From Actinopolymorpha singaporensis (lineage in GTDB: Bacteria > Actinomycetota > Actinomycetes > Propionibacteriales > Actinopolymorphaceae): a stretch of DNA of 64,000 bases. Below the pieces are notes generated by a model, which ran no database searches, was not told the origin of the DNA, and saw only the letters and a list, made by a program, of their open reading frames with translations. Location of the stretch: contig NZ_LT629732.1 in assembly GCF_900104745.1 (NCBI RefSeq), positions 4,079,981-4,143,980 of the forward strand, written 5' to 3'. Position numbers and translations under genes: made by a program. Positions 4,787-22,590 of this stretch are shown here, piece by piece. Position 1 is the first letter of the stretch, and each line of letters starts with the position of its first letter.

Positions 4787-5959
4787 ATGACGGCACATGA
4801 CAACACAGGGCGGGTCCTCCTCTACGAGGCGGTGAAGGCATCCCTGCGTGCGGCCATCGCGAAGGGGGAGTACGTTCCGGGGGCGCTGTTCGTCACCGAG
4901 CGCAAGGTCTGTGAGGAGTACGGCGTCAGCAAGACGACTGCCGTACGCGCCCTCAACGACCTCGTCGCCGAAGGCGTCCTCGTCCGCCGGCAGGGAAGCG
5001 GGACCTACGTCGCCGAACCACAGACGTCGTCTCCGCCGACTCCCCGGGCGAGCAGAGGATCCGGCAACCGTCACCCGACCATCGCCTGCGTCCTGCAGGG
5101 CCACGGCGGGGGGCACGTGAACCAACTGCTCGGGGGAGTGGAGGCCACCTGCTCGGCGCTCGGCTTCCGCGTGCTCCTGGCGTACTCCGAGAACGACTCC
5201 GAGCTCGAGGCGCGGGCGCTGTACCGGGCACTGGACGACGACGTGGACGGCATCGTGCTCTACCCCGCGGAGGGGCACGCCCACGCCGACCTGTTCGCCG
5301 AAATCCGGCACCGGAACGTCCCGCTGGTCATGGTCGACCGTTACCGGCCGGACGTGCCCACGGACGCGGTAACCGCCGACAACCTGGCGGTCGGCTATCA
5401 GGTCACCCAGGAACTACTCGCTCTCGGCCACCGGAGAATCCTCACGTTGTGGAACGAGGTCGACTGTACGAGTGTCCGGGACCGGTTGACCGGACACCTG
5501 CAGGCCCTCCGCCACAACGACGTGCCGATCCGCCCCGACCTCACTGTCCTGCGCAGGTACTCCGGCCGCCCAGGCTCGGGCGCGACGGGAACCCTCGAAG
5601 CTCTGCTGTCCCACCCCGAACCTCCGACGGTGCTGTTGTGCGGTAACGGTTACACGCTCGCGCAGGCTGTGGAGGACGTGGTGGCCCTCGGCATGGAGAT
5701 CCCGGGCGAACTCGACCTCGCCGGAATGGACGACTCCGGGCCGTTCGACATACTGCCGCTCACAGCGGTGGCGGCGACGCTCCCGTCACGGCAACTCGGA
5801 GCCGAGGCCATGCGGCTGCTCCACTCCCGGATCGGTAGTCCCGAGCCGTACCGCGACGTGCGGCATGTCGTACTGCCGATCGCCGTTCGTACGAGGGAGT
5901 CCGCACCCGGTCACCTGCGGGTGCACCAACGAACGACGAGAGTGCCGCCCGAAGAGTGA
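4787..5959 (+). CDS. GntR-N / LacI-C hybrid transcriptional regulator (AraR-like)
   Basis: This is a 390-residue DNA-binding regulator. Residues 1-75 are a GntR winged helix (YVPGALFVTERKVCEEYGVSKTTAVRALNDLVAEGVLVRRQGSGTYV). From about residue 95 it has a LacI-type periplasmic-binding fold with GVEATCSALGFRVLLAYSEN, DGIVLYPAEG, and VDRYRPDVPTDAVTADN. This architecture is that of AraR and relatives, which are repressors released by a sugar. The ATG has AGAAGGA upstream. It faces away from the LplABC-type importer, so it probably senses the imported sugar and controls both directions, and possibly the downstream catabolic genes. Confidence 0.9.
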   Translation: MTAHDNTGRVLLYEAVKASLRAAIAKGEYVPGALFVTERKVCEEYGVSKTTAVRALNDLVAEGVLVRRQGSGTYVAEPQTSSPPTPRASRGSGNRHPTIACVLQGHGGGHVNQLLGGVEATCSALGFRVLLAYSENDSELEARALYRALDDDVDGIVLYPAEGHAHADLFAEIRHRNVPLVMVDRYRPDVPTDAVTADNLAVGYQVTQELLALGHRRILTLWNEVDCTSVRDRLTGHLQALRHNDVPIRPDLTVLRRYSGRPGSGATGTLEALLSHPEPPTVLLCGNGYTLAQAVEDVVALGMEIPGELDLAGMDDSGPFDILPLTAVAATLPSRQLGAEAMRLLHSRIGSPEPYRDVRHVVLPIAVRTRESAPGHLRVHQRTTRVPPEE

Positions 5960-6084: not shown

Positions 6085-7110
6085 ATGGCAGTCGAGGGCC
6101 CGGTACGCCTCGCGCTCATCGGCCTCGGCTCGATCGGCTTGGCTGCACATCTCCCGGCAATGCTGAGGTCGGACGCTGTCCAGCTGGTGGGCATGGCCGA
6201 TCCTTCGAGGGAGCGCCGGGCCGTCGCCACCACCCGTGCGCCTGGTGTGCCGATGTACACAGACGCGACGGCGCTGTGCGGTGCGGAAGGTGTCGACGGC
6301 GTGGTCCTGGCGACGCCGCCATGGGTGACCACCGGACTGGCGGAGCGGTTTCTGCGAGCTGAGCAGTTCGTCCTGGCGGAGAAGCCGATCGCCGTGTCGA
6401 CGGCCGAGGCTCGACCACTGACCACCTTGTCGACCGAGCGGCAACGGCGGCTTCAGGTCGGGCTGACCTACCGACACGATCCAGCACTGGCGCGGTTGCG
6501 GGAGTGGGTTCGAACAGGACCGCTTCACGGTCCGCTGCTGATCCGTGCTCACATCTATGACGAACGTCTGGATGCGAACGACCCCGAGCACTCGGCCCGC
6601 GTCCACCAGACGCTGCGCCACGGTCCTCCGGTGCTGCACGAAGGAGCCCACGTGTTCGACTGGCTGGCGTTCCTGCTGGACGGTGCGAGCCCGCGGGTGT
6701 CCGACGCCTGGTCCGTGCGCACCGATCCGGACGTTGCCTCGCCGAACCTCAACGGGGCAAGACTGACCTACGAGTGCGGAACGACCGCCCTTGTGGAGTT
6801 CGGCTGGCTGACGTGCGAGCTTCCACGGTGTGAGCTCACGATCCTCGGACAGCACGGTTATGCCGTCCTCGACGGCTTCACCTTCCGCCTGACGCTTACC
6901 TCCGACGGCGAGACGAAGGTGTACGACGACCCGGCCGACCGGACCGAGCGCTGTTTCGACCGTCAGCTCGGCGCGTTCGTGGAACTGGTGAGCGGACGGG
7001 GCGATCGGGCGGTACCTGGGCTGCCCGAGGGGCTCACCGCGCTGGAGCTGAGTGAGCGGATCGCGGGCGCGGCGTCGGTGTTCACGATTCCCCGAAGGGA
7101 GCGCACGTGA
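6085..7110 (+). CDS. Gfo/Idh/MocA family NAD(P)-dependent oxidoreductase
   Basis: This is a cytoplasmic sugar or cyclitol dehydrogenase-type protein of 341 residues. The N-terminal Rossmann fold is seen as ALIGLGSIGLAAHLPAM, and the family EKP motif is intact (LAEKPIAVST, Lys100), so a redox role is plausible. The C-terminal alpha/beta domain contains the conserved GPPVLHEGAHVFDW segment with candidate catalytic histidines. It is the first gene of a rightward operon and its stop overlaps the GTG of the next gene. Followed by an amidohydrolase and an MLE-type enolase, it could oxidise a sugar to a lactone that the neighbours open or rearrange. The substrate cannot be read from the sequence. 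Confidence 0.88.
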   Translation: MAVEGPVRLALIGLGSIGLAAHLPAMLRSDAVQLVGMADPSRERRAVATTRAPGVPMYTDATALCGAEGVDGVVLATPPWVTTGLAERFLRAEQFVLAEKPIAVSTAEARPLTTLSTERQRRLQVGLTYRHDPALARLREWVRTGPLHGPLLIRAHIYDERLDANDPEHSARVHQTLRHGPPVLHEGAHVFDWLAFLLDGASPRVSDAWSVRTDPDVASPNLNGARLTYECGTTALVEFGWLTCELPRCELTILGQHGYAVLDGFTFRLTLTSDGETKVYDDPADRTERCFDRQLGAFVELVSGRGDRAVPGLPEGLTALELSERIAGAASVFTIPRRERT

Positions 7111-7886
7111 TCGACTTTCACACCCACACACCGGCCTGGAAGACCGCGACCTGGTTGGCAGGCGCGTCGTTCGGTGCCCGGGAGTTCGTGGAGTTCATGG
7201 ACTCCGCGGGGATCGACGCCGCCGTGGTGCTGAGCCACGACGGACTCTTCAATCCCACTCCTGAGGCGAACGACGAGGTGGCCGCGTTCGTTGCGGAGTA
7301 TCCGGACCGGATGGCGGCGTTCGGCACCGTCAGTCCCCGCCAGAGTGGTGCGGTGCCGGAGGTCGAGCGCTGCTTCAGCCAGCTGCACATGCGAGGGCTC
7401 AAGCTGCACCCGTGGCTGCAGGGATTCTCCATGCACGAGCCCGCACTCGACCCGATCTGCGAGGTGGTCGCCGGGGCGGGAGGAATCCTGCTGAGCCACG
7501 ACGGCACACCGCCGTACTCCACGCCGCTGCAGATCGCGGCCCTGGCTCGAAGGCACCCGAACCTCCCCGTGGTGCTGGGGCACGGCGGCCTCCACGACTG
7601 CTGGCGGGAGGCCCTCGCCGCCACGGTGGAGACGCCGAACCTCTACCTGTGCATCTGTGGGACCCCGCCGTACGCGGCCCGCCGGATCCTGGCCGAGGCG
7701 CCGTCCGGGAAGGTCCTCTTCGGCACCGACGCCGGCCTGTCCGACAAGGCGAGCCAGGACTACGCGGTAGCCCGGGTCCGCGAGATCGAGGGCTGGGGGA
7801 TCACGCCGGCTCAGCGACGATCGATGCTGGAAGATGCTCCGCGAACGCTGCTGGGAGATCGAGGACCGCTACGGGGCAGGGCATGA
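7107..7886 (+). CDS. Amidohydrolase family 2 metal-dependent hydrolase
   Basis: This is a compact 259-residue TIM-barrel hydrolase of the amidohydrolase_2 group, which includes sugar lactonases and aromatic decarboxylases. The metal ligands are in place: HxH near the N-terminus (FHTHTP, His5 and His7), His131 in LLSHDGT, His159 in LGHGG and Asp208 in FGTDAG. The GTG start overlaps the previous stop (GTGA), and the 3' end overlaps the next gene as ATGA. It is a clear relative of the gene at 9893-10651, with matching GTPP and LARR segments, but retains all ligands. Lactone hydrolysis is the best guess given a dehydrogenase upstream. Confidence 0.85.
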   Translation: MIDFHTHTPAWKTATWLAGASFGAREFVEFMDSAGIDAAVVLSHDGLFNPTPEANDEVAAFVAEYPDRMAAFGTVSPRQSGAVPEVERCFSQLHMRGLKLHPWLQGFSMHEPALDPICEVVAGAGGILLSHDGTPPYSTPLQIAALARRHPNLPVVLGHGGLHDCWREALAATVETPNLYLCICGTPPYAARRILAEAPSGKVLFGTDAGLSDKASQDYAVARVREIEGWGITPAQRRSMLEDAPRTLLGDRGPLRGRA

Positions 7887-8989
7887 CCGACACCATTGTC
7901 GCGGTTCACACCGCACTCGTGAGCATGCCGGCACATCCCGACCTTGTCGTCCGCGGTGCGAAGGGCGCTCACGAGCGGTCCGACTTCTGCCTGGTGAGGG
8001 TCATCACCAGTGCCGGAGTCGAGGGATACGGCGAAGTCAGTTGTACCCCTCTGTGGAGCGGCGAGGACGGGCCGACTGCCCAGCATTTCGTACGGACCGT
8101 ACTGGCGCCGGCCCTCCTGGGTCGTCCCTTGGTGCCGGTGGCTGCGTTGGAGCAGGCGATGGATCGGGTTCTCGCGCGCAACCCGTTCACCAGGGCCGGC
8201 GTGTCGACCGCGTTGTGGGATGCCCACGCCCGAACCCTTGGCGTGCCGCTCGCCGTCGTGCTGGGCGGCCCACTACGTACCGAAGTGCCCATCAAACTCT
8301 CACTGTCCGGTGACGGCGAGCGCCTCGAGCAGGTGCACGCCAAGGCGGTGCAGGCCGGTTTCGCGGCGTTCAAGGTCAAGGTCGGCCTCGGCGTCGAGGG
8401 GGACGTCGCCAGGGTCGCGCACGCGAGGCGGCTGGTCGGCGCGGGCCCGTTCCTCGGGATGGATGCCAACGGAGGCTGGTCCCGGGGAGAGGCACGCACC
8501 GCGCTTCGCCGGCTGCATGACCAGGACGTCGCCTTCGTCGAGCAGCCCGTCGACGCCAACGATCTCGAAGGCATGGCGGCGCTTCGGGCCGAGGGCCTCC
8601 CGGTGGTGGCCGACGAGTCGATCTTCGACCTGGCCGACCTTCGCCGGGTGATCCGGCAGGACGCCGCGGACGTCGTCAGCGTGTATGTCGGGAAAGCCGG
8701 TGGGCCTGGCCGAGCGGTGGAGCTGGGCACGATCGCGCACGCGTTCGGCCTGGCTTCGTTGCTGGGCTCCAACGGCGAACTCGGCCTCGGCGCCGCCGCG
8801 CAGGCTCACGTCGCCGCGGCACTTCCGGGCCTGACCACGGCCTTCCCGTCCGACATCATCGGCGCGCATTACTACGCGGACGACATCCTCGCCGAACCGC
8901 TGCCGAGTAACGGACGGCGCGTGTGCCTACCGCCAGGCCCCGGGCTCGGCGTTCAGCTCCGTGAGGACGTGCTCGTCCGGTTCCGCTGA
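7883..8989 (+). CDS. Enolase-superfamily protein, muconate-lactonizing-enzyme subgroup
   Basis: This is a 368-residue mandelate racemase/muconate lactonizing family protein. Visible active-site residues are the KxK pair Lys164 and Lys166 (FKVKVG), metal ligands Asp194 (MDANGGW), Glu220 (VEQPV) and Asp244 (VADES), and a lysine at Lys271 (YVGKAGG) on the opposite side of the barrel. That lysine-lysine layout is the MLE subgroup pattern (cycloisomerases, epimerases, racemases); mandelate-racemase-type acid-sugar dehydratases use a His-Asp dyad there instead. The ATG overlaps the amidohydrolase stop. Longer in-frame starts upstream lie inside that gene and are not used. In context it may interconvert lactone and open acid forms of an oxidised sugar. 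Confidence 0.85.
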   Translation: MTDTIVAVHTALVSMPAHPDLVVRGAKGAHERSDFCLVRVITSAGVEGYGEVSCTPLWSGEDGPTAQHFVRTVLAPALLGRPLVPVAALEQAMDRVLARNPFTRAGVSTALWDAHARTLGVPLAVVLGGPLRTEVPIKLSLSGDGERLEQVHAKAVQAGFAAFKVKVGLGVEGDVARVAHARRLVGAGPFLGMDANGGWSRGEARTALRRLHDQDVAFVEQPVDANDLEGMAALRAEGLPVVADESIFDLADLRRVIRQDAADVVSVYVGKAGGPGRAVELGTIAHAFGLASLLGSNGELGLGAAAQAHVAAALPGLTTAFPSDIIGAHYYADDILAEPLPSNGRRVCLPPGPGLGVQLREDVLVRFR

Positions 8990-9023: not shown

Positions 9024-9896
9024 ATGATCGTCGACGTTCACAACCACACTCCGACCCACCGCGACCCGGTACCCGACAGCGAGCGCCTGTCCTTCGAGGG
9101 CTGGCGTTCGGACCGGTCGGTCGTGACCACGAACAGCTGGGACGACTTCGACCGGCAGCAGACCGACGCGGACATCACCATCGTGTTCAACATCGCGGTC
9201 GACGACCCGTTGCGTGCGACGGGTCTTCCGTATCGGCCTGAGCGGACGAACGATGCCACGGCGGAGTTCGTCGCGGCAGCGCCGGACCGGCGGATCGGCT
9301 TCATGTCTGTCAACCCCCTCTTGCCGACGGTGTTCCAAGAAGTGGAACGCTGCCGCGACCTGAACCTCGTGGGCGTGAAGCTCGGGCCCAACTACCAGGA
9401 CTTCGACCCACTCTGTGACGAGGCGCGTCGTCTGTACGCCTACTGCGAACGGGAAGGTCTGCCCATCCTCTTCCACCAGGGGACCTCGCCCATCCAGGAA
9501 GCGCCGTTGCGGTACACCCACCCGCTCGTGATGGACGAGATTGCGTTGGCGTACCCCGAACTCAGGGTGGTGATGGCGCACATGGGGCATCCCTTCGTAC
9601 GTGAGACAGTCGCGGTCATCCGCAAGCATCCGCACGTGTACGCCGACGTGTCGTCGGTGTACCTGCGTCCGTGGCTGGCGTGGGAGGCGCTGACGTTCGC
9701 CGGCGAATGGGGTGTGCCGCACAAGCTGCTGTTCGGTTCGGACTATCCGATCTCCACCTCCGGTGAGGCGATGGCGGCCCTGCGACGTGTCAACGACATC
9801 GTCGAGGGCACGAAGCTTCCGCGGGTGCCTGACGACTCGATCGAACGGATCATCCACGCAGATGCCCTGTCGGCGCTCGGATTGGAGACGCGGTGA
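9024..9896 (+). CDS. Amidohydrolase family 2 hydrolase
   Basis: This is the second TIM-barrel amidohydrolase in the operon, 290 residues. Ligands are complete: His6 and His8 in DVHNHTP, His151 in LFHQGT, His186 in MAHMGHP and Asp240 in GSDYP. The GVKLGPNYQDFDP segment is typical of the LigI/decarboxylase-like branch of amidohydrolase_2. Longer in-frame starts exist, but the ATG chosen has AGAAGGGGA upstream and starts directly with the metal-binding strand. It lies 34 nt after the enolase and overlaps the following gene by GTGA, so all five genes probably form one transcript. Its reaction is unknown; hydrolysis or decarboxylation of a small acid is likely. Confidence 0.84.
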   Translation: MIVDVHNHTPTHRDPVPDSERLSFEGWRSDRSVVTTNSWDDFDRQQTDADITIVFNIAVDDPLRATGLPYRPERTNDATAEFVAAAPDRRIGFMSVNPLLPTVFQEVERCRDLNLVGVKLGPNYQDFDPLCDEARRLYAYCEREGLPILFHQGTSPIQEAPLRYTHPLVMDEIALAYPELRVVMAHMGHPFVRETVAVIRKHPHVYADVSSVYLRPWLAWEALTFAGEWGVPHKLLFGSDYPISTSGEAMAALRRVNDIVEGTKLPRVPDDSIERIIHADALSALGLETR

Positions 9897-10651
9897 TCAT
9901 CGACGCGCACGTGCGGCTTGGAACAGGGCGGGAAGTCGACCTGACCGTCGAGCAACTCCTGGCGACGATGGACACGCTGGGAATCGACCACGCGCTCGTC
10001 GCGCCTGACGAACGTTGCACGGCATACGACAACCGTGAAGGCAACGAGGCGGTGTGCAGCGCCGCGGAGGCGTCGGGTGGACGGCTTGCTGCCTACGCAG
10101 TAGCAAATCCCTGGCGCGGCCGCTCTGCCTTGGACGAGCTCGCCCGCGCGAAGGACGCCGGCGCGGTCGCCCTGGCGGTGGATCCGGTACTTCAGGGTTT
10201 CGACGTGCTCGACGGGCTGCTCGACCCGCTGCTCGCGTTCGCGGGGGAGCAGGGCTGGTTCGTCTACATCCGTACGGGAACCCCACCGACTGCGCTCCCG
10301 CTCCCGGCAGCCACCCTCGCCCGCCGCTATCCGGAGCTGCGCTTCCTCATGGGCAGGAGTGGCGCGACCGACTTCTGGATCGACGCGGCACCCGCCCTGC
10401 GCCACGCGCCGAATCTCCACGCCGACACCGCGTACGCGCCGTGGGACACCGTTCTCAGCGAGTTCGCGCGCGACGAACAGATCGGAGCGGGTCGATGTGT
10501 CTTCACCACGGACGCGCCCTACACGGTGCCGCGGGCGGAAACGGCCCGGATCCTCGACTGGGTGACCATAGATGACACGCAGCGTGCCGAGGTCCTGGCC
10601 GGATCCGCGATGCGGCTGCTCGGCGCGAACCTCCCGGCAGGCTGGGCATGA
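9893..10651 (+). CDS. Amidohydrolase-family protein lacking the metal-binding histidines
   Basis: This is a 252-residue paralogue of the amidohydrolase at 7107-7886, matching it through GTPP, LARR and the barrel strands. The ligand positions differ. The N-terminal HxH is HVR (DAHVRL, Arg8), the strand-5 histidine is Arg127 (YIRTGT), and the strand-6 histidine is Arg155 (MGRSG). Only Asp207 (FTTDAP) is kept. Loss of three ligands in otherwise intact sequence argues against ordinary metal-dependent hydrolysis. It may be metal-free, a binding subunit of one of its neighbours, or a decarboxylase-like variant. The GTG start overlaps the previous stop. It is the last gene of the operon; the 54 bp to the convergent gene show no clear terminator. 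Confidence 0.8.
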   Translation: MIIDAHVRLGTGREVDLTVEQLLATMDTLGIDHALVAPDERCTAYDNREGNEAVCSAAEASGGRLAAYAVANPWRGRSALDELARAKDAGAVALAVDPVLQGFDVLDGLLDPLLAFAGEQGWFVYIRTGTPPTALPLPAATLARRYPELRFLMGRSGATDFWIDAAPALRHAPNLHADTAYAPWDTVLSEFARDEQIGAGRCVFTTDAPYTVPRAETARILDWVTIDDTQRAEVLAGSAMRLLGANLPAGWA

Positions 10652-10705
10652 CAGACGTGAGGTGGACAACGGCGCCCACGGAACACGACTGGCTGACGGG
10701 GAAGC

Positions 10706-12451
10706 TCAGCAGGTCTCCACGGCGATCTCGTGGGGAGACGCCCGGTCGTGGTCGACCCTGATCGGGATCAGGCTGGAAGGCCATCCGAAGACATCGAGGC
10801 CGGTCACCGGGACGGCCTCGGTGTCCACGGTGGCTCTGGTCACCCGGTCGGATGCGACCGGCAACATGATGGTCAACGCACCGGCGGGGGACCTGCCGGT
10901 CACTCGGCAACGAAGAACGCCGTCTGTGCACGTGGCGTCGCTGATGCGGGCCCGGTCCCGCGCTACCACGAAGTCGGCCCACTCAAAGGCGCTCCAGATC
11001 GGCATTCCGAGCTCACGAGCGGCCTGCCAGCACAGCTCCATGTAGGTCCGGGAGTAGGTGAAGAACGACACCGGATGGGAGAGCATGGACAGCGGGCTGT
11101 AGTAGCGAGTGACCTTCTCCTCCATCAGCTTCCGGGTGAGGGAGGCCTGTCCACGTGGGTCGGCCGAGAGCAGGCCCTTGACGGCGAGGTCGTCGTAGGC
11201 CTGGGTGGACTGCTGGAAGCAGTCCACGACGGTGCCGTCGACGTCGACGAACCTCATCGGACGCGCGGACCCGGTGAGGTACTTCAACCACGAAGGTCCG
11301 GCACCGACGGAGTTCAGGTCCATGCGGACACCGAGTTCGGCATAGACCTTCGGCACGTCGACGTAGCCCTTCCAGGCAAGGCAGTGGTTGCGATTGGTAG
11401 TCGGGACGCCGCCGTAGTGGCGATCGAAGTCCGCGAGGTCCTTACGCACCAGGTCGACGATCACCTCTTCGGGATCCTCGCCACCGTAGGAGGGGTCGGA
11501 GGGGTCGTGGTGGACGCCGAACGAGTGCCCGCGGGCGCGCCATTCCGCGACCTTCTCAGGGGAGGCCACGGTCTCCCTGGACGTACCCGACATGAGGTAG
11601 ACGGTGATCTTCCCGCCGTGAGCATCGACCGCACCGAGCAGTGCGTCGAAATGTTCCGATGCCGACCAGTCGTCGTCGGAGTCGAGAACGAGAACGCTCC
11701 GGTGGGCGGGCTCTGGGTAGTACCACATGCGAGGTTGTGGAAGAGTCGCCACCTGGTTGACCGCGTTGACCAGCATCGCGGCATGAAGATCGGCCTGGGG
11801 CAGGTGCCAGCACCCGGAGTCCGCGTAGCCGGTCAGCAGGTCCTGGATGCGGTAGGGCTCGCCTGCGCCGAGCCCCCGTCCGCCCACCCGGTTCGGGTCG
11901 CCCTGCCGGATCAACGCCACGGCCTGGGCCAGGTCGTAGGTGAAGACGACGACACGCCCGTCTCCGAACGGCAGCTCGATGATCGCGGGAAATGACGTCG
12001 GCGTGCCGACGTCGGCGTACAGGCGTGCTACCTCCACGGCTTCCGCCGGCAGGGCTTCGGGTGCGTAGGAGTCCGCGGGTACGTGGGTCTCGATCGCCTC
12101 CTGGGGCAACGCGTTCGCGATCGGGCTGGTGCCGAGGGGGCGGAGGTAGGCCGGCGCCACCATGGTCGACGCTGGCGCCAGCCCGAAGGCGCGGGCCAGG
12201 TAGTAGGAGGGCCGGACGAGTACCAGTCGTCCACCACCCTTGGCGAAGGCGCGCAGTCTGTCGGTCTGCTCCCTGGAAGGACGCGACCGCGCGACCACAA
12301 CGGTCGCGAACTTCGTAAGGTCGTGGAGTCGCGGGCTGGTCAGGCCGACGATCTCGAGGTCCGCGAGGCCCTCTGCACGGAGGATCTCCGCCAGGTAGCG
12401 GCCGAACTTCCCGACGTCCTGTTCGTCGGCAACGACCACGGCGACAGTCAT
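10706..12451 (-). CDS. Two-domain protein: glutamine-amidotransferase-like N-terminus and polysaccharide-deacetylase-like C-terminus
   Basis: This is a 581-residue protein without a signal peptide. Residues of about 1-215 look like a class I glutamine-amidotransferase/ThuA-like alpha/beta fold (LTKFATVVVARSRPSREQ, KGGGRLVLVRPSYY, DGRVVVFTYDLAQAVALIRQG), which in glycan enzymes often serves as a trimerisation or accessory domain. From about residue 250 a NodB-like barrel is suggested by SVLVLDSDDDWSASEHFDALLG, where aspartates sit at the usual metal position, and by GHSFGVHHDPSD with two nearby histidines. A short beta-rich tail follows. It is third in a leftward operon, with an ATGA-type overlap to the upstream oxidoreductase. 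Role unknown; carbohydrate de-N-acetylation or related hydrolysis is possible. Confidence 0.75.
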   Translation of the reverse strand: MTVAVVVADEQDVGKFGRYLAEILRAEGLADLEIVGLTSPRLHDLTKFATVVVARSRPSREQTDRLRAFAKGGGRLVLVRPSYYLARAFGLAPASTMVAPAYLRPLGTSPIANALPQEAIETHVPADSYAPEALPAEAVEVARLYADVGTPTSFPAIIELPFGDGRVVVFTYDLAQAVALIRQGDPNRVGGRGLGAGEPYRIQDLLTGYADSGCWHLPQADLHAAMLVNAVNQVATLPQPRMWYYPEPAHRSVLVLDSDDDWSASEHFDALLGAVDAHGGKITVYLMSGTSRETVASPEKVAEWRARGHSFGVHHDPSDPSYGGEDPEEVIVDLVRKDLADFDRHYGGVPTTNRNHCLAWKGYVDVPKVYAELGVRMDLNSVGAGPSWLKYLTGSARPMRFVDVDGTVVDCFQQSTQAYDDLAVKGLLSADPRGQASLTRKLMEEKVTRYYSPLSMLSHPVSFFTYSRTYMELCWQAARELGMPIWSAFEWADFVVARDRARISDATCTDGVLRCRVTGRSPAGALTIMLPVASDRVTRATVDTEAVPVTGLDVFGWPSSLIPIRVDHDRASPHEIAVETC

Positions 12452-13611
12452 GGCGCCTGTCCCACCGCACGGGCCGGGCCGGGCCGGAAGTCCGGGACCT
12501 CGAGCAGGCCGCTGCCGGCCGCCATCGACTGGGCGGCCAACACGGCCGGGGCGGCCGTGTCCACTGCTTGATAGATGTCGAAAGGCGGCTGGCGGCCTGC
12601 GAACACGGCGTCTCGGAAAGAGATGTGGGTGTAGTAGTCCGCGTCACCGTGGCCACTGCCGCGTGCCTCGACTGGAGCGTCGGTGCGTTCGTACCGCCAG
12701 TCGACGTCCGCGAGGTCGTGCATCTGCGCGTCCGCCAACCACACCTTCGGTCGATCGCGGTTGGTGCGAGACCACTCGACCCGCCCACCTGTCCCGATGA
12801 GCTGGTACCAGTGCCAGTTACCGGGCGGATGTGGCTGGGCGAAGCTCGCTGCCATCCGCAGGATGGTCCCCTTCCCGGTCCGCATCAGCGCGACCTGCAT
12901 GTCGGCCTGGGCGATCCGGGGGTTCGCGGCGCTCGGTGACCCGGTGCTCATCCCCACCACTTCGGTGACACGGTCGTCGAGGATCCGCAGCATCGGGCTC
13001 AACTCGTGTGGCAGGTAGTGGATCGGCGGCATCTGCTGCGCCCATGTGGGGACCGCATCCGGATGGTCGGGGATACTGTCCGGCCCCATCAGCTCACCGG
13101 ATCGGGGATCCTGGAACATGCCCTCGGTGTAATGGTGGAAGTACTGCCCCTCGGCGAGCGTGACGTGGCCGAGGCGGCCGGAGGACACGAGGCCGCGCCA
13201 GGCGTCGACGAAGCCCCAGTACCGCGTCTGCTCGGCCAGTTGGTAGGTCAGGCCGCTCCGCTCGACCGCGAGCACGAGCCGCCAGCAGTCGTCGACGCTG
13301 TAGGCAGCCGGCACTTCCGCGTGGACGTGCTTTCCCGCCTCGAGGGCCCGTGCGGCGAGCCGGCCCTGGTCCCGGCTCCTGATCGTGAGCGCCACCGCAT
13401 CGACGGTGGGATCCTGGAATACGTCGTCGTAGTCGCTGTACGCGTGTACGGATGTCGGGTCGCCGACGCGAGACAGTGCGGCCTGGTGCAGAGCCTCGAT
13501 CCGATCGCACACAGCCGTGATCCGGTATCCCGGGATGCGCGCCAGCAGCGGGATCCACGTCCCGAGGGCCCGTGGACCGAGACCGACGACGCCGACGCGG
13601 ATCTCGTCCAT
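12448..13611 (-). CDS. Gfo/Idh/MocA family protein, EVP variant
   Basis: This is a 387-residue oxidoreductase-fold protein. The Rossmann start reads VGVVGLGPRALGTWIPLL. The usual catalytic EKP motif is replaced by EVP (KHVHAEVPAAYSVDDCW, Val100), so the standard lysine is absent. I believe this is a recurrent subgroup of the family, resembling NAD-using glycosidases such as GH109, and not random decay, since the rest is intact (YHYTEGMFQDPRSGEL, LPHELSPMLRILDDRVTEV, GSGHGDADYYTHISF). It overlaps both neighbours through ATGA junctions, placing it in the same leftward operon as the TIM-barrel and NodB-like proteins. It could be an NAD-dependent glycoside-cleaving or epimerising enzyme. Confidence 0.82.
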   Translation of the reverse strand: MDEIRVGVVGLGPRALGTWIPLLARIPGYRITAVCDRIEALHQAALSRVGDPTSVHAYSDYDDVFQDPTVDAVALTIRSRDQGRLAARALEAGKHVHAEVPAAYSVDDCWRLVLAVERSGLTYQLAEQTRYWGFVDAWRGLVSSGRLGHVTLAEGQYFHHYTEGMFQDPRSGELMGPDSIPDHPDAVPTWAQQMPPIHYLPHELSPMLRILDDRVTEVVGMSTGSPSAANPRIAQADMQVALMRTGKGTILRMAASFAQPHPPGNWHWYQLIGTGGRVEWSRTNRDRPKVWLADAQMHDLADVDWRYERTDAPVEARGSGHGDADYYTHISFRDAVFAGRQPPFDIYQAVDTAAPAVLAAQSMAAGSGLLEVPDFRPGPARAVGQAP

Positions 13612-15044
13612 CAGATGTTGGCCGACTCGCCTGCGTGGGCGTGGTACTCAGCGGCCACTGCGGCGAAGGAGTGCTGCGGACGGTCGGGAACGAAGATGTC
13701 GATGCTGGGGACCGGAACGCCGTGGCTGGAGTCGAGTGTCCAGGCATCAGTGGTTTCGAACCCCGGATTGTCGACGGTGAAGCCCAGCGTCTCGATGTGG
13801 TCGAATCCCACGTCGACGGGGAAGATCTCGTCCCCTCCGCGAGCCTGGTGAAGGCGGAACGCCAAGGTGGCGCTCGTCCTGCCGCGCAGCCGTTCGGTCA
13901 CGTCGATCGGCCCGTGGAGCGTGGAACACTGCTGCCACAGCGCGAAGCCATGGTGGCGGACGTCTTCGGACCAGATCACCTCACCGTCGAGCAGCACCTG
14001 CTTGACATGCTTACCGGCGCCGCCGACCAGTCCGCTGAAGATGTCGTTGTGCCAGAACGACAGTTCGTGCCGTGGCGCGTCCGGGTCGACCCGGACGACC
14101 TGTGAAGCCTGGGCGTACGCCCCCTCCTGCGTGCGGACAGGCGGGACGAGAAGACTCAGGCGGCCGTTTCCGTACATCGCCTTGTTGGTCGAGGAGATGG
14201 TCGGGGCGTCGTCGAGTTGGAGACCGTATGCCGTGACCCCTGCGATCCTGCCTGCCCGGGCGTACTCGAGCCCGGCGCGAACCGCCGAGGCACAGTAGTC
14301 GGGGGTGGGTTCGTTCCACGCGTCCAGGAAGCGGCCGGTGTACACGAGCAGAACCACATCGAGGTTCCAGGGCCGCACGGCGGCGCGGATCTCGTCCAGG
14401 CATGGTCCGACGCTGTCCGCGACGATGGTGTTGAGGTTCCGCCCGTCCAGGAACGGATAGAGCACGAGGTCGAGATAGGGGCCGTACTTCGCGAGGAACC
14501 CCGGATCGGTCGCCGCGTGGAAGTAGGTGCAGAGGTAGAACGCCAGATCGGGGTTGATGTCCTGGGCCACCTTGCGCAGCAGCGCCACATAGTCGGTCGT
14601 GAAGGTTTCCTGGTTGAACTCGAAATCGTCGATGCCCCACGCCTTCACGTTGGGATGCGCGACGGAGAGCTCGGCACAGGCGCGGGCCCAGGCCACGTAG
14701 TCCATCACGTAGGGCCTTGAGGCGCGGCCCCCGTCGCGGGAGGTCTCGCTGGGTGGAACGAGATAGACCCAGACGTCGATACCCGCATCCGCGGCGGCCG
14801 GGGCGAACTCGAGCCGCAGGTCGTCCCAGTCCGTAGGGGAGTCCCATATCCCGTAGATGTAGGTGTTGGCCCCGAGGGCCAGCAGCTTCCGGATCATCGC
14901 GGGCGTGTCGACGTGGCGGTAGCCGTCCGTGCGTGGAGATGGCTCACGCAGCATCGCTCCGACGGTGTTACCTCCGCACTGGGAGGCTCTGATGCCGCCG
15001 GCCGGGATCAGGCCGGACAGTCGTGAGTTGCCTACCTCGGTCAT
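13611..15044 (-). CDS. Unclassified TIM-barrel (glycosidase-like) protein
   Basis: This is a 477-residue cytoplasmic protein that I cannot assign to a named family. The first two-thirds read like a (beta/alpha)8 barrel acting on glycans: TPAMIRKLLALGANTYIYGIW, VKAWGIDDFEFNQETF with acidic residues at a strand end, DLAFYLCTYFHA, YLDLVLYPFLDGRN, NLDVVLLVYTGRFLDAW. The last third (about residue 330 on) is a beta-rich segment with VKQVLLDGEVIWSEDV, like the carbohydrate-binding tail of many glycosidases. The ATG chosen has an excellent CAGGAGGT site 6 nt upstream; an ATG 30 nt earlier lacks one. It is the first gene of the leftward operon. Confidence 0.8.
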   Translation of the reverse strand: MTEVGNSRLSGLIPAGGIRASQCGGNTVGAMLREPSPRTDGYRHVDTPAMIRKLLALGANTYIYGIWDSPTDWDDLRLEFAPAAADAGIDVWVYLVPPSETSRDGGRASRPYVMDYVAWARACAELSVAHPNVKAWGIDDFEFNQETFTTDYVALLRKVAQDINPDLAFYLCTYFHAATDPGFLAKYGPYLDLVLYPFLDGRNLNTIVADSVGPCLDEIRAAVRPWNLDVVLLVYTGRFLDAWNEPTPDYCASAVRAGLEYARAGRIAGVTAYGLQLDDAPTISSTNKAMYGNGRLSLLVPPVRTQEGAYAQASQVVRVDPDAPRHELSFWHNDIFSGLVGGAGKHVKQVLLDGEVIWSEDVRHHGFALWQQCSTLHGPIDVTERLRGRTSATLAFRLHQARGGDEIFPVDVGFDHIETLGFTVDNPGFETTDAWTLDSSHGVPVPSIDIFVPDRPQHSFAAVAAEYHAHAGESANI

Positions 15045-15082
15045 GCCGACCTCCTGGCACGGGCGGCTCGTCATCCAACGGG

Positions 15083-21783: not shown

Positions 21784-22590
21784 GTGGGCGCGGAACCAAA
21801 CCCCCGGGCGGCGTCCCCGTCGACGGATCGTGCGCTGCGGGTCCTGGAGACCCTGGTTCAGGCCGAGGGCTCACTGACCTTGACGATGCTCGCGCAGGAA
21901 GCCGGCGTACCGCTCGCAACCTGCGCCTCGATCGTGCAGACCTTCGAGGAGCGAGGCTACGCCAACCGGCAGGTCGTCGGCCGGAGCCACTTCTGGCAAC
22001 CGACGCTCAGGCTGTACGCGATGGCAACTCGCCTCGTCCGCAAGATCGACCCGACCAACGTCTCCCGCCAGCACCTTCGCTCACTGAGCGACAAGGTCGG
22101 CATGCCGGCCCACCTGGGTGCGCTGGACGGTGCGACGATCGTCTACGTCGCGAAGGCCGCGACACCGGGTTTCGTCCAGTTCGACACCTTTGTCGGGAAG
22201 GTCGCACCCTTCAACCTGACGGCCCTGGGCCGAGCGATCACCGCCTACCTGCCGGAGTCGGAGCTTGTGTCACTGCTTGACCACCTGGCTCCCGGCGCCG
22301 GTCCTCGAGCGCGGCGCCCGAGCGTTCGGGCTTTCCGGCGGGAGCTGGCCGAGACGCGCGAGCGCGGTTACGCCTTCGAGGACGAGGAGGAACAAGCCGA
22401 GATCAGCTGCGTGGCTGCCCCGGTGTTCGACGCCGGCGACCGGGTGGCGTACGCCGTCGGCGTCACCGGCTTCTCGAGCGAGTTCTCCGGTGCCAAGCTG
22501 CATACGGTCGCGGCCGCCGTCCGGCAGACGGCGAGTGCGATCTCCTCCGAACTCGGCTCCCTGGTTCCGCCACAGCGGACCCTCCGCTGA
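21784..22590 (+). CDS. IclR family transcriptional regulator
   Basis: This is a 268-residue regulator: an N-terminal winged helix (RALRVLETLVQAEGSLTLTMLAQEAGVPLATCASIVQTFEERGYANR) and a C-terminal IclR effector domain (HLGALDGATIVYVAKAATPG, VGKVAPFNLTALGRAITAYLP, EEEQAEISCVAAPVFDAGDRVAYAVGVTG). The GTG start has AACGAGGAGGG upstream. Position at the end of the importer operon and shared promoter elements suggest it controls the importer and the divergent TIM-barrel operon in response to a small acid or sugar derivative. Confidence 0.9.
   Translation: MGAEPNPRAASPSTDRALRVLETLVQAEGSLTLTMLAQEAGVPLATCASIVQTFEERGYANRQVVGRSHFWQPTLRLYAMATRLVRKIDPTNVSRQHLRSLSDKVGMPAHLGALDGATIVYVAKAATPGFVQFDTFVGKVAPFNLTALGRAITAYLPESELVSLLDHLAPGAGPRARRPSVRAFRRELAETRERGYAFEDEEEQAEISCVAAPVFDAGDRVAYAVGVTGFSSEFSGAKLHTVAAAVRQTASAISSELGSLVPPQRTLR

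Follow-up and report, generated by a model that had tools for sequence, protein, structure and literature searches.

Gene C of Actinopolymorpha singaporensis (positions 9893-10651, forward strand, of the window, by which we mean the whole 64,000-nucleotide stretch that was analysed) encodes a 252-residue Amidohydro_2 paralogue without a complete metal site, and the sequence facts are firm: C belongs to a genuine and conserved subfamily that lacks the metal site within a known superfamily. Most described Amidohydro_2 enzymes depend on a bound metal. Because related bacteria retain the arginines found in C, the protein resembles a relative of the metal-dependent hydrolases that still works but has no metal site, and it looks like a functional branch, devoid of the metal site, of the ACMSD/5-carboxyvanillate-decarboxylase-like Amidohydro_2 barrels. 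In our leading reading, to which we give about one chance in two, C is an enzyme of catabolism that needs no metal and acts on an anionic intermediate, either a sugar acid or a lactone; the absence of metal, catalysis itself, the substrate and the step are what we infer.

The reading frame of C is intact and starts with a GTG that overlaps the stop codon of gene B. The product matches the Amidohydro_2 profile (PF04909, E 8e-20) with 72.2 bits against a curated cut-off of 26.4, which places it in the family, and is 29% identical across 237 residues to the product of gene A (7107-7886, forward strand; PF04909 E 2e-27), an intact paralogue whose residues H5, H7, K99, H101, H131, H159 and D208 are invariant in its orthologues. 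We set the residue register between the two proteins by flanking motifs. The beta-1 motif reads DFHTHTP in A and DAHVRLG in C, the beta-4 motif GLKLHPWLQGF and ALAVDPVLQGF, and the beta-8 motif FGTDAG and FTTDAP; LLSHDGTPPYSTP of A aligns with VYIRTGTPPTALP of C around residue 127, and VVLGHGGLHDCW with FLMGRSGATDFW around residue 155. This register bears out the initial annotation, which had placed Arg8, Arg127 and Arg155 of C at histidines of A (His7, His131 and His159, respectively) and had Asp207 retained (codon at 10511-10513). Its list of changed sites was incomplete, since on beta-4 K99 of A has become A95 and H101 has become D97 (10181-10183).

The accompanying claim that the metal-binding histidines were lost holds for positions 8 (codon at 9914-9916), at the second His of the HxH motif, and 127 (10271-10273), at the beta-5 His. 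It does not hold for H6 (9908-9910), the first His of HxH, which is retained, nor for position 155 (10355-10357), at the beta-6 His: judging by mononuclear members such as ACMSD, we take positions 8 and 127 to be the only metal ligands proper among the three and position 155 to be that of a catalytic or second-shell His. A complete site of the ACMSD/LigW type (HxH on beta-1, His on beta-5, His on beta-6 and Asp on beta-8) is absent from C and present in both A and the second intact Amidohydro_2 paralogue, gene B (9024-9896, forward strand; PF04909 E 1e-33). In B, H7, H9, K120, H152, H187 and D241 occur in 31/31 orthologues, and every orthologue of A or B that covers the positions has the full site. 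None of the three proteins matched an NCBIfam name.

To define the distribution of C we scanned genome contigs, which yielded 26 loci, all of them in actinobacteria, and searched 391 genomes of the window's order, where 11 besides the window's own had a match, a set that overlaps partly with the contig scan. In an alignment of 33 actinobacterial orthologues (49 to 91% identical) 73 columns are invariant; H6, R8, D97, R127 and D207 are each found in 33/33, and at position 155 25 orthologues have Arg and 8 have Lys. Because R8 and R127 occur in all 33 and Arg or Lys stands at 155 in all 33, the pattern is beyond chance, and no orthologue in the same context with His at these sites was found among them. 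R8 is encoded by four codons (CGG 20, CGC 9, AGG 3, CGA 1) and R127 by three (CGG 14, CGC 14, CGT 5). The dN/dS of C was 0.13 against a genome of the same genus (G011), 0.13 against Actinopolymorpha alba (L018) and 0.20 against G015, comparable to its neighbours A (0.08-0.14), B (0.07-0.16) and the enolase-superfamily, MLE-like gene (0.11-0.19), the last two being closest, and lower than Gfo (about 0.22).

These data bear on whether C is a decaying copy whose active site was lost by drift. A single A-to-G change suffices to turn His into Arg, and the orthologue of Fodinicola feengrottensis (L043:8001-8611) appears frameshifted, being split over two frames (8001-8399 and 8399-8611), which reflects either a frameshift or an assembly error. 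Drift is nonetheless contradicted by a dN/dS of 0.13-0.20, by R8 and R127 remaining invariant with varying codons across several orders, and by the 73 invariant columns. Ruled out by dN/dS, codon turnover and conservation in the orthologue survey, it retains almost no probability, and the residue changes in C are not decay. The initial annotation had named two outcomes that would refute it, orthologues in the same context with His at these sites and a high dN/dS, and neither occurred. The conserved arginines and the low dN/dS, a sign of purifying selection, thus support the earlier proposal of a new function.

An AlphaFold2 model of C, built on the 33-row alignment (mean pLDDT 93.4, pTM 0.92), is a distorted (beta/alpha)8 barrel that matches AHS structures. 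The top solved fold was 3cjp (Z 25.4 over 226 residues), followed by 3irs (25.1), human ACMSD (23.7), gamma-resorcylate decarboxylase (23.7), the COG3618 protein 4dlf (23.5) and the LigI-like 2ffi (22.3). In the predicted model the changed residues lie at or just past the C-terminal ends of strands. Invariant columns were enriched on the catalytic face (42/91 versus 35/153 elsewhere, p 2e-4), as were invariant polar residues (odds 5.2, p 4e-4), in a test that is approximate, with the face taken from the DSSP string and the limits of beta-8 estimated. This face carries 21 invariant polar residues. The second-best match, 3irs (BB4693), itself has non-ligand residues at the aligned beta-5 (MMTGG) and beta-8 (GTAYP) positions and may be a further AHS protein poor in metal ligands, here one whose structure is solved.

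Could the conserved pocket be a rebuilt metal site, in which H6, D97, D207 and perhaps E40 or D178 bind Ca, Mg or Mn? Every candidate ligand is invariant and D97 stands where A has its beta-4 His, but the basic R8, R127 and R/K155 in the former metal environment should disfavour a cation. We know of no AHS metal site of the H6/D97/D207 type, which we also count against this arrangement, and we consider it improbable.

By family and fold, C is closest to proteins of the ACMSD, LigW and gamma-resorcylate decarboxylase type and to 3CJP (CAC3332), with which it has in common the barrel (Z 22-25), the Pfam family, the top PDB sequence matches and the position of the beta-8 Asp. Unlike the ACMSD/LigW type, C is without the second His of HxH, the beta-5 His and the beta-6 His, and it is about 250 residues long compared with about 330 in the decarboxylases. 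LigI (2-pyrone-4,6-dicarboxylate lactonase), a COG3618 lactonase of the AHS, is metal-independent and uses its beta-8 Asp as a base; it retains HxH and the beta-5 His, which hold the lactone carbonyl. LigI and C have similar AHS barrels (Z 22-23.5 to 2ffi and 4dlf) and the same beta-8 Asp, D207 being present in 33/33 and presumably a general base, whereas R8 and R127 of C, again in 33/33, stand in place of the HxH and beta-5 His of LigI. Because LigI retains these histidines, it is no residue-level precedent for C. The profile search does not support placing C within LigI/COG3618: the C profile matched 3cjp and the LigW type but no COG3618 chain among PDB entries at E 0.1 or better, and the histidines that LigI retains are missing; by fold, 4dlf and 2ffi rank just slightly under the top matches.

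Gene C lies, as the initial annotation stated, in an operon, and the set of genes around it is conserved. In the window the operon begins with a GntR-type regulator that has a periplasmic-binding-protein-like sensor domain (4787-5959; PF00392, PF13377), followed on the same forward strand by a Gfo/Idh/MocA-family dehydrogenase (6085-7110; PF01408 E 6e-16), A, an enolase-superfamily, MLE/mandelate-racemase-like enzyme (7883-8989; PF13378 E 3e-52, PF02746) that scores under the cut-off of the muconate-cycloisomerase-like model, B and C. Loci of C orthologues carry a near-constant set of IclR regulator, Gfo/Idh, creatininase-family, A, enolase-superfamily, B, C and DHDPS-family genes, often joined by a MalFG-type sugar importer, and this set occurs in many actinobacteria. 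It most likely encodes a conserved catabolic pathway for the oxidation of a sugar or sugar acid. Our literature search found no paper on a protein like C or on the gene set.

The window's own version departs from this arrangement in several respects. The DHDPS-family and creatininase-like genes are missing from its operon (10651-10706), and in the same-genus genome G011 the DHDPS gene follows C immediately. A creatininase-like gene, 60% identical, is located elsewhere in the window's genome (G000:C1:4678128-4678856), and the top DHDPS match there is only 34% identical. An IclR-type regulator, the usual start of the set, is found 11 kb downstream (21784-22590). A protein of about 470-490 residues without a Pfam match (13611-15074, reverse strand) recurs beside the gene set in several genomes, among them L036 (211-1620), L061 and L063.

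We favour a metal-independent enzyme because the gene set resembles the Gli/Gci/KdgD route and because LigI works without metal. In the Agrobacterium galacturonate route, Gli acts as the isomerase of galactaro-1,5-lactone and Gci as the enzyme that opens it, with KdgD coming after them (PMC6353982); Gli is an AHS protein according to a title cited there. As in that system, which serves sugar-acid lactone metabolism, the conserved gene set of C brings together an AHS protein, an enzyme of the enolase superfamily, a dehydrogenase and a member of the DHDPS family (PMC6353982). Unlike it, the C operon has three AHS genes and a creatininase-like gene, and the likeness drawn here is one of gene set. 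In the proposed mechanism, R8, R127 and R/K155 would stand in for the metal as electrophile, gripping a carboxylate, lactone carbonyl or oxyanion, and D207 and H6, perhaps with D97 or E40, would serve as general acid-base. The reaction may be the hydrolysis or isomerisation of a lactone, or something comparable. C would then parallel LigI in principle, in needing no metal, through different residues. We count in favour of this enzyme the conserved residues, codon turnover, dN/dS, barrel model, face enrichment, gene set, co-occurrence of A and C, and relatives with the full set of histidines.

To examine how the site was lost, we turned to the nearest relatives outside C, L015_1395 (39% identical; site motifs HRH, KLH, YVHTG, MGHAG and GSDAP) and L045_1488. 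Both have the full site, and the ancestor of C was therefore, by sequence comparison, probably of the metal type. Searching with L015_1395 uncovered a second metal-site-less family, D (L081-L087, L104), in a single genus, where C occurs too. D proteins are 43-48% identical to C, with motifs DAHVAAG, GLKLAPS, YVVTGVPV, MGRSGRTDF and FSSDAPF; they have Ala8, Ala97 and Val127 against Arg, Asp and Arg in C, and retain H6, R155, D207 and the beta-4 Lys. Because D has Ala8 and Val127, Arg at 8 and 127 is not a requirement for the wider group as a whole, which speaks against the metal-independent enzyme. With ligand columns masked, the best tree groups C and D at 92/86 with L015_1395 outside, but AU tests rejected neither a C+L015 clade (p 0.55) nor a D+L015 clade (p 0.25). 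The metal site may therefore have been lost either once, with R155 common to C and D, or twice. The three changes need not have been independent, as the initial annotation had them: all fall on the branch leading to the C family, and sister family D has R155 as well.

D resembles C in having lost the same sites and in its gene neighbours. In D clusters (L106:6521-13543 and L107:4317-11386), an intact A-like paralogue follows immediately downstream of D; genes like those for Gfo and creatininase and for amidohydrolase B are also present, as is a DHDPS-family gene in L107. No enolase-superfamily gene was seen in a D cluster. The same 12 of the 391 genomes carry both A and C. In one of these (G080) both are distant, full-site versions, and the C-like gene adjoins the A-like gene, with an ABC importer and genes resembling nagA/nagB alongside. 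In three types of operon, then, an A-like gene is linked to a C-like one, and the trees of the two are compatible, although the order on the A side has weak support (83/53). The pair appears to predate the loss of the site, and the loss should therefore be traceable stepwise.

This linkage is what would be expected if C were a non-catalytic partner, forming a heteromer with A or sensing a metabolite, that stabilises or regulates A. The A-like gene has the full site in every pair, and D arrived at its loss by a different route (Ala/Val), which is what one would predict were binding or assembly all that matters. There is a precedent in the inactive dihydroorotase homologue, PyrC', needed for assembly of Pseudomonas aspartate transcarbamoylase (Schurr 1995, as cited in PMC4581275). 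PyrC' is, like C, an AHS paralogue kept by selection after losing its active site, and C is indeed an intact gene under selection with a lost metal site; PyrC' belongs to another AHS branch and has a partner of another fold, and the pocket face of C is conserved. A pure scaffold would need none of the 21 invariant polar residues on the catalytic face. The joint presence of A and C in 12 genomes is consistent with a partnership but not specific to it, since a shared pathway explains it equally well, and in the window two genes separate C from A. Distance correlations single out no link to A (A-C 0.72, B-C 0.76, C-Gfo 0.79); with every gene pair correlating alike, we discarded mirror-tree correlation as a sign of an A-C complex. 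On balance we regard a non-catalytic partner as unlikely, though it is the main competitor to the metal-independent enzyme.

A broader formulation, which we hold tentatively, is that C and D make up an undescribed amidohydrolase branch whose site was dismantled, C having become either a catalyst of metal-free carbonyl chemistry through an Arg cluster and Asp or an obligate ligand-binding partner of A. With full-site relatives (L015, L045), intact A and B, and the two outcomes C and D, how a family abandons its metal is directly testable. The Pfam name 'Amidohydrolase' is identical for intact and metal-site-less proteins. Two further Amidohydro_2 proteins have altered ligands: in L045_2201, which adjoins the full-site relative of C, Cys/Ser stand around the position of the beta-5 His, and in L051_1491 His replaces the beta-8 Asp.
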